Positions 19,793 through 26,373 of a stretch of 64,000 nt of DNA are shown piece by piece. The position numbers and the translations under genes are program-made. Each line of letters opens with the position of its first letter. Position 1 is the first letter of the stretch. The notes under the pieces were generated by a model. That model was given only the letters and a program-made list of their open reading frames with translations, had not been told where the DNA came from and did no database searches. The stretch is from Alphaproteobacteria bacterium (GTDB lineage Bacteria > Pseudomonadota > Alphaproteobacteria > Micropepsales > Micropepsaceae): positions 62,001 to 126,000 of the forward strand of contig WGNJ01000006.1 in assembly GCA_016124635.1 (NCBI GenBank), read 5' to 3'.

Positions 19793-20551
19793 ATGCGGCG
19801 GGCTGTTGCGATCGTATTGGCTGTGATGCTGGCGGCGGGTGCCGGCGCGCTCATCGGCGCCAAGCGGCTCGATGAGATCGCGGCCGCTCGACCAGCGCTG
19901 GCAGTGCGCTCGGGCGCCGAGACCTATTTCATTCCAAGCGCCTATGTTCGCAGCGGCGGATTGAACGTGCAGCTAATGCGGCTCGCCGGCTGCTGGGATG
20001 CGCGTGACGGGGCTTATTTCGCCGCGATGGCGTCGGCCGCTGATTGCGGGTCGCGCGGCATCGAGTTGGCGCTGCCGTCGTCGCTCTTTGGTGGCGAGGC
20101 GATGGACATGTTTCGCAAGCCGCAGCTCGAGGCGCGTTTCTGGCCCGCCTATTGGGTGCCGCCGCAGGATATCCGCGATCTCCTGGAAGCGATCGAGGGG
20201 CGCGGTGATTGGACCGGCCGACAGGTGGTGCTGCGCGCGGACTGGAATCTGTGGCGCGTCGAGAGCCCCGCAAGCCCTTGGGTCTTCCTATTGTCGCGTG
20301 AGCCGAATCCCGGCGATCCGCGCGAGCTTACATTTCTCTACGCCGGGCGCTGTTATCGGCCCGAGCGCATAGGCGATGCGGGTATGACGTGCCGCTTTGT
20401 CCTACGCGTGGGCGCAAGGGCCGCGATCGAATTCTCGCTTGGCGCCGATGAGGTGATGAGCTTTCCAAGCTTGCGCGATGCATTGCTGGCGCGTGTCGCC
20501 GAATGGCGCAAGGCGCCGGTCGTCAGTGGAAGTTTCGGCCCTTCGGCATGA
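19793..20551 (+). CDS. hypothetical exported or membrane-anchored protein
   Basis: About 252 residues. The N-terminus has two Arg followed by a hydrophobic stretch (AVAIVLAVMLAAGAGALIGA), a signal peptide or anchor. The rest, with Trp-rich segments such as MFRKPQLEARFWPAYW and VVLRADWNLWRVE, matches no family I recognise. ATG 19793 has AAGGGA 9 bases upstream, better than the TTG at 19772. The last 29 bases overlap the convergent dnaE2 gene, with no room for a separate terminator. Confidence 0.6.
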   Translation: MRRAVAIVLAVMLAAGAGALIGAKRLDEIAAARPALAVRSGAETYFIPSAYVRSGGLNVQLMRLAGCWDARDGAYFAAMASAADCGSRGIELALPSSLFGGEAMDMFRKPQLEARFWPAYWVPPQDIRDLLEAIEGRGDWTGRQVVLRADWNLWRVESPASPWVFLLSREPNPGDPRELTFLYAGRCYRPERIGDAGMTCRFVLRVGARAAIEFSLGADEVMSFPSLRDALLARVAEWRKAPVVSGSFGPSA

Positions 20552-23500
20552 CTTTTTGCGCGCGCGGGTGCTTGTAAAGCGCGATCTCGTCGGGCGGCGG
20601 CTCACGCGGGATGACGCGCGATTGCGGTCGCTTCATCGGCGCGCGTCCGTCGACGGCCGGCGGGCGTTTGACTTCGTCGGCACGCGAGAGCGTGTCGATC
20701 GAAACGATGTCGGCCGAGAGCATGCCGAGGAGCGGCGTCAGGTCCTCCATGTGTTCGGCGACGATGTGGATGACGCTGCTCTCGCTTTGCAGGCGGCCGC
20801 GCACGGCGATGAAGCGGCTTCCCAGAACGAGCGGGCGGAAGCGTTCGAACACTTTCGGCCAGACGATGACGTTGGCGATCGACGTTTCGTCTTCGAGCGT
20901 CATGAAGATGACGCCGCTTGCGGTGCCCGGACGCTGACGGACAAGCACGAGGCCTGAAACCGTGACGTGCTGGCCGTCCGGAATCTTAGTCAGGTCGCCG
21001 TTGCGGATAATGCGGCGGGCAGAGAGCTCATCGCGCACGAACGCCGTCGGATGAGCTTTGAGCGACAGCGAGAGATGACGGTAGTCCTCGACCACATGTT
21101 CGCCGAGCAGCATCGGCGGCAGCGCGAAATCGGGTTCGCGCTCGCGCGCATGATCGAAGGCGAGGAGGGGGAGGTCGTCCTTGTCGCCGGTGCGGCGCAG
21201 GCCGCGCACGACCCACAGAGCTTCACGGCGATCGAGGCCGAGTGAGCGAAAGGCATCGGCGTCGGCGAGGCGTTCGAGTGTCGAAGGATCGAGGCCCGTG
21301 CGCAGCCAGAGGTCGCGGATCGAATCGTAGCCTTGGCCGCGCTTCGCCATGAGCTGCGCCGCGTCTTCTTGCTTGAAACCAGAGATTTCACGAAAGCCGA
21401 GACGCATGGCGCAGGTGGTGCGAATCTCGTCCGCCATCGATGCGTGGCGCGGATGGAGGTGCTCGCTCATCCTCCACCGCTTTAGCGGGGGAGGTGGATC
21501 GCCGCCCCGGGTTACAGGCGCTGCGCTTGCCCGGGGTAAACTCCGCGGCGAGACGGAGGGGGCATGTTGAATTGTGGGAAGGTCGTCACCCGGCTTGTCC
21601 CCCTCCACCGCTTCGCGGTCCCCCTCCCCCGCTAAAGCGGTGGAGGATGAATAAGGCTCCAGCACGTTGTCCCAGTCGGAGGCGTTGATGTCGACGGCGC
21701 GCATTTCGACGCCGTGTTCTTGGGCGTCACGGACGATTTGCGCGGGTGCATAAAAGCCCATGGGCTGTGCGTTGAGGAGCGCGGCAGCGAAGACGTCGGG
21801 GTAGTGGCATTTGATCCACGATGAGACGTAGACGAGGTTGGCGAAGCTCGCGGCGTGGCTTTCGGGAAAGCCGTAGTCGCCGAAACCTTTGATCTGATTG
21901 AAGCAGGCGGCGGCGAATTCGGGCTCGTAGCCGCGCTCGATCATGCCGCCGATGAATTTCTTCTCGAAGTGATGGATCGTGCCGTTGCGGCGGAAGGTTG
22001 CCATAGCGCGGCGAAGCTTGTCGGCCTCGGCGGGCGTGAAGCCCGCGGCGACGATGGCGATGCGCATCGCTTGCTCTTGGAACAGCGGCACGCCGAGCGT
22101 CTTGTGCAGCACCTCCTTGAGCTCGTCCTTGGGGAAAGAGACCTTTTCGATGCCTTGGCGGCGCTTCAGATAAGGATGAACCATGCCGCCTTGGATAGGG
22201 CCGGGGCGCACGATCGCAACTTCGATGACGAGGTCGTAGAACTCGCGCGGTTTCAAGCGCGGCAGCATCGACATCTGTGCGCGGCTTTCGACCTGAAAGA
22301 CGCCGATCGAATCCGCGCGGCAGAGCATGTCGTAGATGGCGGGTTCGTCCCACGGTACGTTCGAAAGCGTGAGCTGCCGGCCGTAATGCGTCTCGATCAT
22401 CTGGAAAGCCTTGCGGATGCAAGAGAGCATGCCGAGCGCCAGCACATCGACCTTGAGGATGCCGAGGGTGTCGAGATCGTCTTTGTCCCATTCGACGAAC
22501 GTACGATCTTCCATCGCCGCGTTGCCGATCGGCACGACTTCATCGAGACGATCGCGCGTCATCACGAAACCGCCGACATGCTGGGAGAGATGGCGCGGGA
22601 AATCGATGAGCTCACCCGTGAGGGCAAGGACCTTCTTCAGGCGCGGATCGCTCGGATCGAGGCCGGCGCGGCGCACTTCTTTGTCTTCGGGCCCAGTGTC
22701 GGACCAGCCCCAGAGCGTGGAAGCGAGCGCGCCGATCGCATCTTGCGACAGGCCGAAGGCTTTGCCGACGTCGCGAACGGCGCTGCGTCCACGGTAGGAG
22801 ATCACCGTCGCGGCGATGCCGGCGCGATGGCGGCCGTAGCGTTCGTAGATGTATTGCATCACCTCCTCACGGCGCTCGTGCTCGAAGTCGACGTCGATGT
22901 CGGGCGGCTCGCGCCGCTCGGCCGAGACGAAGCGTTCGAAGAGAAGATCGACCTTGACCGGATCGACCTCGGTGATGCGCAGGCAGTAGCAGATCACCGA
23001 GTTGGCGGCCGAGCCGCGGCCTTGACACAAAATTCCGTGCGAGCGGGCGTAGCGCACGAGATCGTGGACGGTGAGGAAGTAGGGCGCGTAGTTCAGCTCG
23101 CCGATCAACTGAAGCTCATGGTCGAGCGCGTTGCGGACCTTTTCCGGGATGCCGTCGGGGTAGCGCCAGCGGGCGCCGGCCTCGCTGTAGGCGATGAGCG
23201 CCTCCTGCGGCGTCGCGTAACCTTCGCGCGTTTCCTCCGGATATTGGTAGCGCAGCTCGTCGAGCGAGAAGTCGATGCGCGCGAGGAAGCGAATCGTCTC
23301 GTCGATCGCGTCCGGGATTTTGACGAAGATGCGCGCCATTTCGGACGGCGGCTTCAAGTGACGCTCGGCGTTAGCTTCGAGGTGATAGCCGGCGGTGTCG
23401 ATGGTGACGCCCTCGCGGATGCAGGTGAGGACGTCCTGGAGCGCGCGCCGTGCGTGATCGTGATAGAGCACGTCGCCGATGGCGATCAGCGGCACGTTGT

Positions 23501-24116
23501 GGCGCGCGCTGGCATTGATCAGCCGTGTGAGATGACGCCTGTCGTCGCCGCGATAGAGGATCGAGGCGCCGAGCCAGACGCGGCCGGGCGCAATGGCGCT
23601 GAGCTTCCTCAGCGCGGGCTCGACGCGGTCGCTACGGGGGCGCGGGGGCACGACGATAAAGAGCAAGCCTTCGTGCAGCTCGGCGAGATCGTCAAAATTG
23701 ATGATGCAATCGCCTTTTTCGGCGCGGCGATTGCCGAGCGTGAGCAGGCGCGAGAGATGGCCATAGGCGGCGCGGTCGGTCGGGTAGGCGATGATGTCGG
23801 GCGTCCCGTCCGAAAAGACGAGGCGCGCGCCGACAACCAAACGGATGTCTAGATCCTTTGCCTGACTGTGGGCGCGCACGACGCCGGCGAGCGAATTGCG
23901 GTCGGCGATACCGATGGCGGCGAGCCCGTAGTCCGCCGCGCGCAACACCATCTCCTGCGGATGCGAGCCGCCGCGCAGAAAGGAGAAATTCGTGGTGACG
24001 GCGAACTCGGCATAGGGCGGTGGCGATGATTGTTGCTGCTGACGCGTCTCAGCTTTGCTCTGCCGCTCCCGGCGGAAGTCGTTGAGCGTGATGACGTTGG
24101 TGTCTGTCATGGCCAC
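20523..24116 (-). CDS. dnaE2: error-prone DNA polymerase DnaE2, carrying an in-frame repeat insertion
   Basis: A 1197-residue DnaE2 (ImuC). The PHP domain starts near residue 35 (AEFAVTTNFSFLRGGSHP); the catalytic PDIDVDF is at about 405-411; a helix-hairpin-helix region follows from about 910 (MRLGFREISGFKQEDA) and an OB-fold near 1060 (VTVSGLVLVRQRPGTASG). It is the translesion polymerase of the SOS mutasome with ImuA and ImuB. Residues 823-883 (bases 21650-21468) are translated from a palindromic repeat element and begin SSSTALAGEG and end PPPLKRWRM. The frame is intact, so the enzyme may be functional. It lies downstream of imuA and imuB, separated from imuB by a DUF559 gene. Confidence 0.93.
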   Translation of the reverse strand: MAMTDTNVITLNDFRRERQSKAETRQQQQSSPPPYAEFAVTTNFSFLRGGSHPQEMVLRAADYGLAAIGIADRNSLAGVVRAHSQAKDLDIRLVVGARLVFSDGTPDIIAYPTDRAAYGHLSRLLTLGNRRAEKGDCIINFDDLAELHEGLLFIVVPPRPRSDRVEPALRKLSAIAPGRVWLGASILYRGDDRRHLTRLINASARHNVPLIAIGDVLYHDHARRALQDVLTCIREGVTIDTAGYHLEANAERHLKPPSEMARIFVKIPDAIDETIRFLARIDFSLDELRYQYPEETREGYATPQEALIAYSEAGARWRYPDGIPEKVRNALDHELQLIGELNYAPYFLTVHDLVRYARSHGILCQGRGSAANSVICYCLRITEVDPVKVDLLFERFVSAERREPPDIDVDFEHERREEVMQYIYERYGRHRAGIAATVISYRGRSAVRDVGKAFGLSQDAIGALASTLWGWSDTGPEDKEVRRAGLDPSDPRLKKVLALTGELIDFPRHLSQHVGGFVMTRDRLDEVVPIGNAAMEDRTFVEWDKDDLDTLGILKVDVLALGMLSCIRKAFQMIETHYGRQLTLSNVPWDEPAIYDMLCRADSIGVFQVESRAQMSMLPRLKPREFYDLVIEVAIVRPGPIQGGMVHPYLKRRQGIEKVSFPKDELKEVLHKTLGVPLFQEQAMRIAIVAAGFTPAEADKLRRAMATFRRNGTIHHFEKKFIGGMIERGYEPEFAAACFNQIKGFGDYGFPESHAASFANLVYVSSWIKCHYPDVFAAALLNAQPMGFYAPAQIVRDAQEHGVEMRAVDINASDWDNVLEPYSSSTALAGEGDREAVEGDKPGDDLPTIQHAPSVSPRSLPRASAAPVTRGGDPPPPLKRWRMSEHLHPRHASMADEIRTTCAMRLGFREISGFKQEDAAQLMAKRGQGYDSIRDLWLRTGLDPSTLERLADADAFRSLGLDRREALWVVRGLRRTGDKDDLPLLAFDHAREREPDFALPPMLLGEHVVEDYRHLSLSLKAHPTAFVRDELSARRIIRNGDLTKIPDGQHVTVSGLVLVRQRPGTASGVIFMTLEDETSIANVIVWPKVFERFRPLVLGSRFIAVRGRLQSESSVIHIVAEHMEDLTPLLGMLSADIVSIDTLSRADEVKRPPAVDGRAPMKRPQSRVIPREPPPDEIALYKHPRAQKVMPKGRNFH
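21467..21650 (-). repeat. palindrome-ended repeat element, copy A (inside dnaE2)
   Basis: A 184-base element bounded by inverted repeats of about 28 bases; on the minus strand it opens TCATCCTCCACCGCTTTAGC and closes with the reverse complement. Inner shared blocks with copy B are CCCCCTCCGTCTCGCCGC and GGCGATCCACCT near the right end. The middle differs between copies and contains a smaller partial hairpin (21607-21620, ACCGCTTCGCGGT). It sits in the coding sequence of dnaE2 and is translated without a stop. Strand is given as the orientation matching copy B on the plus strand. Confidence 0.9.
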
Positions 24117-24125
24117 GCGCCCTAC

Positions 24126-24578
24126 TTAGCTTCCCCCCTTGAGGGGGAATTGAGCGGAACGGCGTAAGCGTGTACTGGCTTCGCGCCAAATGGCTTCGAG
24201 TACGCCGTCGATGTTCTTGTAGATATCGTTGTTGCTAGCGCGAATTTCCTTCCAACCGAACCGAGCCATAAAGGCGCGTCGGCGTGCATCATGAGCGCGC
24301 TCGGCTTCAGTCGAGTGGGTTTCTCCATCAACTTCGACAACGAGCTTTGCGCGTAAACAAACAAAATCGGCGACGTAAGTGCCAATCGGATGCTGTCGAC
24401 GGAATTTGATCCCGTCGATCGCCTTTTGCCGAAGATTTTGCCAGAGAATTACCTCAGCATGCGTCATCTTCCGGCGAAGCGTTTTCGCCAAAGCATGCGA
24501 TTCTGTTTCCTTCGTATGTGGATAGGTGCCTTTCCATTGCCACTTCTGTTTTTGCTTGTGAGGCGGTTGATCACTCAT
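24126..24578 (-). CDS. DUF559 endonuclease-like protein (VSR / PD-(D/E)XK fold)
   Basis: A 150-residue DUF559 protein. The core runs LRRKMTHAEVILWQNLRQKAIDGIKFRRQHPIG, then D71 in YVADFVC and E82-V-D84-G in VVEVDGETH, the acidic triad expected of a VSR-like nuclease. The substrate is unknown. The gene splits the usual imuB-dnaE2 pair; dnaE2 starts 9 bases after its stop. Its last codons (FPLKGGS) are written by a small palindrome at 24131-24149, and a palindrome-ended repeat ends 39 bases before its start on the opposite side. This placement looks like insertion into an older operon. Confidence 0.85.
   Translation of the reverse strand: MSDQPPHKQKQKWQWKGTYPHTKETESHALAKTLRRKMTHAEVILWQNLRQKAIDGIKFRRQHPIGTYVADFVCLRAKLVVEVDGETHSTEAERAHDARRRAFMARFGWKEIRASNNDIYKNIDGVLEAIWREASTRLRRSAQFPLKGGS
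24131..24149. repeat. short palindrome at the 3' end of the DUF559 gene
   Basis: TTCCCCC (24131-24137) and GGGGGAA (24143-24149) form 7-base arms around CTTGA. The palindrome encodes the last residues of the DUF559 protein and lies 15 bases before the dnaE2 start on the minus strand. It has no T-run, so it is not a typical terminator, but the hairpin could influence dnaE2 translation. Confidence 0.6.
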
Positions 24579-24617
24579 TGTGACCCCGCGTGTATCTTCA
24601 GGAAGCTTCGATTTCGC

Positions 24618-24784
24618 TCATCCTCCACCGCTTTAGCGGGGGAGGGGGACCATCCGGCGAAGCCTTGGCGAAGTCGGATGGTGGTGGGGGATTCATGTGC
24701 GTTCGCTTGAAGAGGTCCCGCAGGCCCCCTCCGTCTCGCCGCTGCGCGGCGATCCACCTCCCCCGCTAAAGCGGTGGAGGATGA
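24618..24784 (+). repeat. palindrome-ended repeat element, copy B (between imuB and DUF559 gene)
   Basis: A 167-base copy of the element in dnaE2, with the same terminal inverted repeats (TCATCCTCCACCGCTTTAGC at the left, reverse complement at the right) and the shared inner blocks CCCCCTCCGTCTCGCCGC and GGCGATCCACCTCC. An internal hairpin CATCCGGCGAAG...GTCGGATG (24651-24681) is specific to this copy. It ends 29 bases past the imuB stop side and begins 39 bases from the DUF559 start, so it fills most of the only real gap in the cassette. Confidence 0.9.
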
Positions 24785-24813
24785 ACGAGCGTGGTACGCG
24801 CTGTTCATGTTCA

Positions 24814-26373
24814 TCATGCGAAGAGGCCGTGCATGAACCAACGGGTGCGGTCGACTTCGGGACCCAAAAGGCCTTCGCGGTAGAGCCAGAATCTTCGGCC
24901 GGCATTGTCTTCGACGCGGAAATAATCGCGCGTGAGCGGGCGGCCTTCGCCGTCGCGCCACCATTCCATGGCAATGCGCTCAGGTCCGTCGGCACGCGTC
25001 ACTTGATGCTGCATGCGCCGCCAAGAAAAACGCGCGGGCGGACCATCGGGAACTTCGGCGACGGCTTCGATCGCCTCGGGGCGCTCAAACATGCGGAGAG
25101 GCCTGACCGGTGCGACGCTGTCTTGCGCCGGCGCTTCGGTCTTGAGCTTTGGCATGGTTTGCACTTCGCGTGCGGCGACGGCTTCGACGGCGTATTCGGG
25201 GATGTGCGTTTCTTGCGGCACGTAGCGGATGACCCGGCGAATGCCAAAGCGCGCGCCGAGACGATCGATCAAATCGGCGATGTCCTCGTTTTGTTCTCCG
25301 GGCGAGAGGAATTGAACCTGGTCGGCGACCATCGAATCCGCGTTCGTCACGGCGAGACGCACGACGTCGAAGCCGAAGCCTGGATCGAGCTCATCGCTGA
25401 GCACAGAGAAGCGTTCGGAGAACAAACGGCAGAGGACGCGCGGATCACGCAGCGGACGGCTCGTCGCGACGGATAGGCGGCGCACGGCGCCGTCGACACG
25501 AAAGAGCGTCACCTGCAATGCGCGAGCGCCGTCGCCGCGCTCTTCCATGCGGCGAGCAAGTTCACTTGCGAGATGCTCGATGGTCGCGAGGATGTCGCTC
25601 TCGAGCACGATCGGTTCGGGGAAGCGGCGCTCTGCCATATACGGTGCGACCGGCATGCGCGGGGTGATGGTTTCGCTCAAGCGGCCGAAGGCTTGATCGA
25701 GACGCTGCACGAGGAGCGTGCCGAAGCGGGCGGCGAGGGGCGCGCGCGGGCGATCGACGATGTCGGCGATGCGCTTCAGGCCGACACGCGCCAGAGCGTC
25801 GACGGTCTCGGTATCGATGCGCAGTGCCGCGAGCGGCAAGGGCAGAAGCGTTTCGCGAATCGCGCTCGGGACGATGACACCGGGCTTGCCGTAATGCGCG
25901 ACGGCCCACGCGGCGCCGGGCGTCGAGGCGATCGCGGCGCGGACGATGAAGCCTTGCGCGCGCAGGCGGCGGACGACGTCGCGCAGCATCGCGTCCTCGC
26001 CGCCGAACAAATGGGCGCAACCCGTGATGTCGAGCATCATGCCGTGCGGCGCATCGGCGCCGACGAGCGGCGTGTAGCGGTTGGTCCAATCGACGATGCC
26101 GCTCAAGAGTTGCCGGTCGGCGGCTTCGTCGGCGTGTTCGACCAGGATGTTCGGATACATCGCGCGCGCGTCGATCAGCGCGAGGCCGGGGGCTAAGTCC
26201 AGCTTGCTCGCCGGCTCATTGACCGCGACGAGACGCAGCGCGCTCTTGATGTCGCTGACGACGACACGCGGGCGCGTTTCGATTTCAGTTCGCGAGAACT
26301 GCCGCTCGATCCGGTCCGTCGGCAACCTCTCCAGCCACACCGACAGATAGCGGTTCGACAAAGCGCTGCTCAT
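24814..26373 (-). CDS. imuB: Y-family DNA polymerase-like protein ImuB
   Basis: A 519-residue Y-family homologue. The first strand reads YLSVWLERLPTDRIERQ in place of the acidic metal-binding segment of active polymerases, and the later acidic pair is also absent, as expected of ImuB, which acts as an adaptor between DnaE2, ImuA and the beta clamp. Palm/finger parts include LVAVNEPASKLDLAPGLALIDARAMYP and MMLDITGCAHLFGGE. The end FMHGLFA is the usual ImuB C-terminus, so the gene is complete. It overlaps the imuA 3' end by 89 bases. Confidence 0.93.
   Translation of the reverse strand: MSSALSNRYLSVWLERLPTDRIERQFSRTEIETRPRVVVSDIKSALRLVAVNEPASKLDLAPGLALIDARAMYPNILVEHADEAADRQLLSGIVDWTNRYTPLVGADAPHGMMLDITGCAHLFGGEDAMLRDVVRRLRAQGFIVRAAIASTPGAAWAVAHYGKPGVIVPSAIRETLLPLPLAALRIDTETVDALARVGLKRIADIVDRPRAPLAARFGTLLVQRLDQAFGRLSETITPRMPVAPYMAERRFPEPIVLESDILATIEHLASELARRMEERGDGARALQVTLFRVDGAVRRLSVATSRPLRDPRVLCRLFSERFSVLSDELDPGFGFDVVRLAVTNADSMVADQVQFLSPGEQNEDIADLIDRLGARFGIRRVIRYVPQETHIPEYAVEAVAAREVQTMPKLKTEAPAQDSVAPVRPLRMFERPEAIEAVAEVPDGPPARFSWRRMQHQVTRADGPERIAMEWWRDGEGRPLTRDYFRVEDNAGRRFWLYREGLLGPEVDRTRWFMHGLFA

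Follow-up and report, generated by a model that had tools for sequence, protein, structure and literature searches.

A palindromic element read in frame within dnaE2, and its likeness to units that carry a DUF559 nuclease gene between palindromic arms

The element inside dnaE2 and its copies

We analysed a 64,000-nucleotide stretch of DNA (the window) from the 4.51-Mb genome of an alphaproteobacterium of the family Micropepsaceae (G000). In this window, the gene for the error-prone polymerase DnaE2 adjoins a gene encoding a DUF559 domain, and an imuB-like gene follows. A palindromic element lies inside dnaE2, and a second copy of it lies between the DUF559 gene and the imuB-like gene. The features that bear on our argument are the following.

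20523–24116, minus strand: dnaE2 (error-prone DNA polymerase, 1197 aa), frame uninterrupted by the element (ORF, Pfam, NCBIfam)
21467–21650, no strand assigned: two-arm palindromic element in dnaE2, encoding DnaE2 residues 823–883 (repeats, ORF, genome copies, fold)
21467–21502, plus strand: left outer arm, holding the hairpin CCTCCACCGCTTTAGCGGGGGAGG; inverted-repeat pair I2
21547–21562, plus strand: inner end of the L-type arm, GGCGAGACGGAGGGGG, a run also found beside DUF559 in genome G091
21599–21627, plus strand: R-type inner arm, CCCCCTCCACCGCTTCGCGGTCCCCCTCC
21615–21650, minus strand: right outer arm; inverted-repeat pair I2
24126–24578, minus strand: DUF559 gene (PF04480, PD-(D/E)XK-type nuclease), candidate mobiliser family, adjoining dnaE2 (ORF, domain search)
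24130–24151, no strand assigned: single palindromic arm of another family, CTTCCCCCCTTGAGGGGGAATT, overlapping the 3' end of the DUF559 gene
24614–24788, no strand assigned: second copy of the dnaE2-borne element, with the DUF559 gene on one side and the imuB-like gene on the other; inverted-repeat pair I3
24814–26373, minus strand: imuB-like gene, mutagenesis cassette (ORF, domain search)

A sequence-only reading of this DNA had proposed that a repeat is inserted in frame in dnaE2. The 1197-residue frame indeed runs through the element without a stop, and residues 823–883 come from it. That these residues are repeat rather than DnaE2 sequence is borne out by relatives whose DnaE2 is without them and by the many copies in the genome; among orthologues the 61 residues show no conservation. 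The reading had also given the 184-base element terminal inverted repeats of about 28 bases. The inverted repeats are real, and their length needs correcting: a repeat search found outer arms of 36 nt each (21467–21502 and 21615–21650) that are 94% complementary. Folded as RNA, the 196-nt segment 21461–21656 reaches −121 kcal/mol (z −8.65), and none of 200 shuffles was as stable. By inspection, the arm ends read TCATCCTCC..GGAGGATGA and bear neither a GTAG nor a CGTC end tag, and no target duplication was seen at the dnaE2 insertion.

The second copy, which had been placed about 3 kb away, was found at 24614–24788, where 34 nt are 100% complementary to the dnaE2 copy. The L-type arm is unbroken there and is broken by another small palindrome in dnaE2. 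A 17-nt arm core occurs at 44 places in G000 at up to two mismatches (reversed control 0), so these two copies are far from the only ones, as the sequence-only reading had expected of a search with the terminal repeat. The core is absent at up to one mismatch from ten congeners, several of which are incomplete drafts, and this absence suggests that the exact arm-core family expanded recently. Among 29 sites, hand-listed from the two-mismatch search with tandem copies counted, 15 pairs lie less than 3.5 kb apart, against a random expectation of 0.63; a neighbour copy 3 kb away fits the family because its sites cluster. An open frame within the element is not rare, since 18 of the 66 frames are open over the 11 two-arm copies examined.

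The DnaE2 linker and the state of the polymerase

We compared 78 DnaE2 proteins from 80 fetched loci (the family plus genomes G060 and G047; some genomes have more than one DnaE2, and loci L060 and L073 gave none). The linker that follows the WDxxLE motif is 34–111 residues long in eight of these proteins, 25–28 in four and 4–13 in 64, and is unreadable at contig ends in the remaining two. The eight long linkers are encoded by differing DNA: a copy of the two-arm element in G000, and other inserts in G002, G011, G060, G018, G001, G008 and G005. The inserts of G001 and G008 are single arms, and that of G005 is a REP pair of the CGTC type, within which a second palindrome is nested. Ungapped palindrome scores exceeded all of 40 shuffles in G000, G002, G005, G011, G018 and G001, and did not in G060 (9 against 10) or G008 (8 against 8).

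Five of the seven genomes of the genus with a readable linker, G000 included, bear palindromic inserts belonging to four repeat families; G003 and G004 have none. Different repeat families sit in the same dnaE2 linker in different species, and the linker accepts repeats of more than one system. Long palindromic linkers are rarer in named records than in the genus: 68 of 80 such loci could be parsed, and two have them (Jiella sp. LLJ827 and one MAG).

Inserts that resemble translated repeats were also seen by eye in other DnaE2 loops, in the PHP region and at the N-terminus (L199 in G036, L201 in G073, L228 in G105 and L070 in G047). ImuB of G011 has a palindromic insert within its open frame (L062:3407–3557), which matches the DUF559 flanks of another genus with a score of 26, against a maximum of 12 for the YbeY flanks introduced below.

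Target specificity was considered as the cause of the linker hotspot and found unsupported, as other DnaE2 loops and ImuB are struck too. Tolerance, not site preference, is the simpler reading, and we prefer it because of those same repeat-like inserts. One could suppose instead that insertion is adaptive, with longer linkers tuning polymerase recruitment and lineages repeatedly fixing repeats, and palindromic inserts at one spot in five of seven genus genomes agree with this. The inserts elsewhere in DnaE2 and in ImuB do not, the insert is predicted to be disordered and varies in sequence between species, and tolerance is explanation enough; we consider an adaptive origin extremely improbable. 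Under tolerance, the dnaE2 copy would have survived because the linker that joins the polymerase core to the helix-hairpin-helix domain is flexible, and because the copy has an in-frame length and leaves the frame free of stops.

Over its full length, DnaE2 of G000 exceeds the curated cut-off of NF004225, error-prone DNA polymerase (1435 bits against 939; Pfam/NCBIfam), and in the same searches its polymerase domains are intact. D406 and D408, the acidic residues of the PDIDVDF motif that we take to be catalytic, are present. An AlphaFold model has a mean pLDDT of 82.6, with residues 825–879 below 50, and the insert in this model is likely a disordered loop. With synonymous sites close to saturation, pN/pS of dnaE2 is 0.28 between G000 and G002, 0.38–0.40 between G000 and each of G001, G003, G004 and G005, and 0.24–0.30 among pairs of G001, G003 and G004. 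By these ratios dnaE2 is under constraint in G000, and constraint may be slightly relaxed in the G000 line. The earlier suggestion that the insert might abolish mutagenesis finds no support in the intact domains, the predicted disorder, the pN/pS of 0.28 against G002 or the same-linker inserts of five of the seven genus genomes. Judged from sequence and model, DnaE2 most likely remains active with the insert.

The junction between imuB and dnaE2 is a second landing place. In the window it holds the DUF559 gene and the element (24117–24813), in G002 a different two-arm element, and in G005 a Y1 transposase gene with inverted repeats of about 28 nt (loci examined at the junction: L055 and L058:3442–4205). 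Separately, DnaE2 proteins about 70% identical to the alphaproteobacterial query occur in Mucilaginibacter and Sphingobacterium records (Bacteroidota; L125, L131, L144, L170), where horizontal transfer is possible.

DUF559 genes and their palindromic flanks

The DUF559 gene beside dnaE2 had gone unmentioned in the sequence-only reading. By eye, all three DUF559 genes of G000 adjoin palindromic arms, and two have related arms on either side. Locus L003 has full related elements on both sides with the L-type inner end in common, and locus L002 has the window-family element on one side only. At the window gene the window-family element lies only on the 5' side, a palindrome of another family stands at the 3' end, and the flank test described next failed, all of which counts against a role for DUF559. 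Arms similar to that 3' palindrome stand on both sides of a DUF559 gene in G004 (L081) and occur also in DnaE2 of G001.

For each gene we compared the 350 nt on its left with the 350 nt on its right, took the score of the best ungapped repeat that they share, and counted 16 or more as a pass. This flank test was adopted after a plain hairpin score near DUF559 had failed to discriminate (7 of 31 loci against 6 of 111 ORFs at 16 or above, on either flank); the YbeY and phylum-wide samples were added later with the threshold unchanged. The family sample comprised 31 loci, the three of G000 and the 28 best-scoring others, one per genome, with L102 left out for its short flank. Twenty-three of the 31 passed, against 2 of 133 controls (other ORFs in the window and near DnaE2 genes), and against 1 of 30 YbeY genes, the best-scoring ones from the same 96 genomes (Fisher 5e-9 for 23/31 against 1/30). 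Passes were also obtained at 18 of the 30 best-scoring DUF559 loci phylum-wide and at 8 of 12 named plasmid loci (12 scored of 39 plasmid records with a DUF559 match), the latter including Deinococcus psychrotolerans (53, between paaD and paaZ), Sinorhizobium, Sphingomonas, Novosphingobium and a cyanobacterium. The failures, 8 of 31 in the family, 12 of 30 phylum-wide and 4 of 12 on plasmids, count against a DUF559 model; by eye, the four failing plasmid loci have arms on one side only.

Inspection by eye extended the pattern to further loci. G001 and G002 together have nine DUF559 matches, and each of the eight that we retrieved is bordered by arms left and right. The Neisseria gonorrhoeae gene has the same direct repeats on both sides, and Escherichia coli ycjD has palindromic arms on one side. 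DUF559 matches number two and six in phages and viral contigs. As a side observation, ycjD in L276 is followed by three palindromic arms, and the surroundings of this gene vary among E. coli genomes (L276, L285).

The DUF559 unit is also set between operon genes, between paaD and paaZ in D. psychrotolerans and between pnt genes in Sphingomonas parapaucimobilis. This placement bears on an alternative in which DUF559 serves in repair or defence, as a Vsr-like nuclease lying near palindromes or acting on them, and the repeats spread by another route. For VsrA, a DUF559 protein of Caulobacter, a role in very-short-patch repair has been hypothesised (PMC12907096), and PADLOC gave three matches, all marginal (best E 4e-4). 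That a gene should sit between repeated arms as the core of a unit, even between operon genes, is however not what a repair role predicts, and we regard this alternative as decidedly unlikely.

A gene-bearing unit of another genus allows the dnaE2 element to be compared part by part. At locus L094 of G091 an outer hairpin is followed by the L-type inner arm, the DUF559 gene, the R-type inner arm and a second outer hairpin. The dnaE2 element has its L-type and R-type ends in this same order, with a core in place of the gene. Arm sequence is common to the two: a 33-nt run on the R side (CCCCCTCCACCGCTTCGCGGTCCCCCTCC plus the next bases) recurs without a difference in the right arm of the gene-bearing unit, a 17-nt run is identical on the L side, and the outer hairpins differ in the loop.

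We then set the eight DnaE2 inserts against 39 DUF559 flanks. Six scored above all 30 YbeY flanks by at least 6 and the G008 insert by 2 (13 against 11), and the G005 insert showed no excess (14 against 15). The match holds within the same genome in G000, G002 and G018. In G001 (11 against 11 for YbeY) and G011 (10 against 12) the genome's own DUF559 flanks do not match its insert, which counts against the model. The DnaE2 repeat of G002 has 51 matches in its genome when its own two are counted, and a DUF559 match at C49:19602–19913 is tightly flanked by two of the 51; that of G005 occurs at 41 places in its genome. We think it rather probable that the 184-base element belongs, as a gene-less (non-autonomous) member, to a family in which a DUF559 nuclease gene lies between two asymmetric palindromic arms, and which DUF559 would mobilise.

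At the scale of whole genomes, we counted an arm pattern, CCTCCCCN{3,11}GGGGAGG, which occurs at up to 193 places per genome (reversed control at most 6). Median palindrome density is 6.8 per Mb in the 54 genomes whose best DUF559 match has E below 1e-25, 0.33 in the 23 with no match and 0 in the 19 with weaker matches only. The number of strong DUF559 matches correlates with palindromes per Mb (Spearman 0.68, n=96; 0.77 within one genus, n=69), both being raw values uncorrected for phylogeny and G+C. Seven genomes with no DUF559 match still have at least 3 palindromes per Mb, and they count against the DUF559 model. Of the 19 family genomes with weak matches only (best E 1.7e-7 to 7.6e-21), two reach 1 palindrome per Mb, which suggests that the weakly matching proteins are a separate, non-mobile subfamily.

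The repeats might instead be ordinary REP/REPIN sequences moved by a Y1 (RAYT-type) transposase, with DUF559 a passenger in palindrome-rich places. Two of the eight DnaE2 inserts, in G005 and G008, are of the CGTC REP type, and it is these whose match to DUF559 flanks is absent or marginal; in G005 the Y1 gene lies directly beside dnaE2; and REPs inside DnaE2 are already published (PMC3733652). Y1 matches were found in 7 of the 15 genomes searched, with two in G033 (145 arms), three in G068 (76 arms) and one in G000 (C24:37803, E 5e-9). Yet the G000 match, the only one there, lies about 26 kb from the nearest listed family copy, which ends at C24:11479, and no Y1 gene flanked by the window-family repeat was found in G000. 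Eight of the 15 genomes have no Y1 match, and six of these nonetheless have 84–193 arms each (G011, G078, the incomplete draft G079, G084, G104 and G105). The window arms, on inspection, carry neither REP end tag. We judge movement by Y1 unlikely for this family.

The reading in which DUF559 moves the units can be set beside their turnover within a species. Three Azospirillum brasilense replicons were compared over about 50 kb, in which aligned pieces are 93.7–97.5% identical. Besides a difference of about 980 nt, three larger ones were seen, each at a palindromic unit; two further indels, of 16 nt, are tandem duplications. MTCC4039 alone has one of the units, and at this presence/absence site a short flank differs too. 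At one place Sp7 and MTCC4039 have different units and the third strain apparently has a collapsed arm, and in Sp7 a 58-nt palindrome lies inside the loop of an arm. Palindromic units are gained or lost within a species, which does not in itself reveal the enzyme responsible.

Candidate empty sites elsewhere were set aside. For E. coli ycjD, the query is at least 80% covered in 3333 of 5426 genomes, and two of the others have RND efflux and TetR genes beside fabI and so offer no clean empty site; Deinococcus sp. QL22 has paaD–paaZ without DUF559, with a spacer too diverged to define a junction. Among the matches listed for Sinorhizobium meliloti there was no ready empty site.

Strain polymorphism and terminal inverted repeats would also suit MITEs with palindromic ends, moved by a conventional transposase that was not seen. 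However, no target duplication was seen, and DUF559, which was the gene looked for, lies repeatedly between such arms; we find this reading very improbable. That no target duplication was found weighs against the DUF559 model as well.

A candidate mobile unit among known systems

In the reading that we prefer, the DUF559 nuclease would cut DNA, possibly in hairpins or at palindromes already there, and repair would copy the unit into the break, somewhat as with homing endonucleases and with no need of a target duplication. In keeping with this, the Caulobacter protein VsrA is responsible for an SOS response when cells lack a methylase (PMC12907096). We also offer, tentatively, a wider proposal: DUF559 may be the engine of a separate class of mobile elements, in which a nuclease gene between palindromic arms and swarms of gene-less relatives make up many of the GC-rich palindromic repeats from Alphaproteobacteria to Deinococcus, Neisseria and cyanobacteria. 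Such elements would spread by cut and repair, often into older palindromes or in their place, and some would become in-frame protein segments.

We know of no mobiliser named so far for repeats of the kind seen here. If true, the link between DUF559 and these repeats would give a function and a test both to the repeats and to a domain of unknown function. The DnaE2 linker, for its part, is a spot where repeats of differing origin turn into protein sequence in a DNA-damage polymerase that tolerates them. REP insertions in DnaE2 genes are already known (PMC3733652); what is proposed here, from sequence comparison, is that there are palindromic units bearing DUF559. The portions of the open-licence literature available to us gave no link between DUF559 and palindromic repeats, which may be in print elsewhere. 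They do group YcjD with the PD-(D/E)XK nucleases (PMC1189080) and name repeated transposase/DUF559 segments as recombination hotspots (PMC12308824).

The sequence-only reading had likened the insert to the palindromic elements of Rickettsia, and as a matter of description the likeness is apt, in that palindromic repeats are read in frame inside protein genes in both. Here, by contrast, arms of the same kind bracket DUF559 genes. RPE-4 and RPE-6 are counted as CGTC REPs in PMC3733652. REP and REPIN sequences with their RAYT, as described there, are alike in the inverted pair of hairpins, the high copy number, the gene-bearing and gene-less forms and the in-frame cases, DnaE2 among them. REPs are defined there by a GTAG or CGTC end tag, and CGTC repeats apparently have no dedicated transposase (PMC3733652). 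In the units described here, by contrast, inspection finds no such tag, and a PD-(D/E)XK-type DUF559 nuclease replaces the Y1 transposase between the arms.

MITEs are comparable as short, gene-less sequences with terminal inverted repeats and a presumed reliance on a gene-bearing relative, whereas here target duplication is unseen and the gene-bearing relative carries DUF559. Homing endonucleases of the EDxHD, or Vsr-like, kind typically ride in introns or inteins and have fixed target sites. A DUF559 gene is assigned to that group in PMC9403480, and spread by cut and repair would be alike in the two, whereas here the gene is carried between two palindromic arms and the sites are many.
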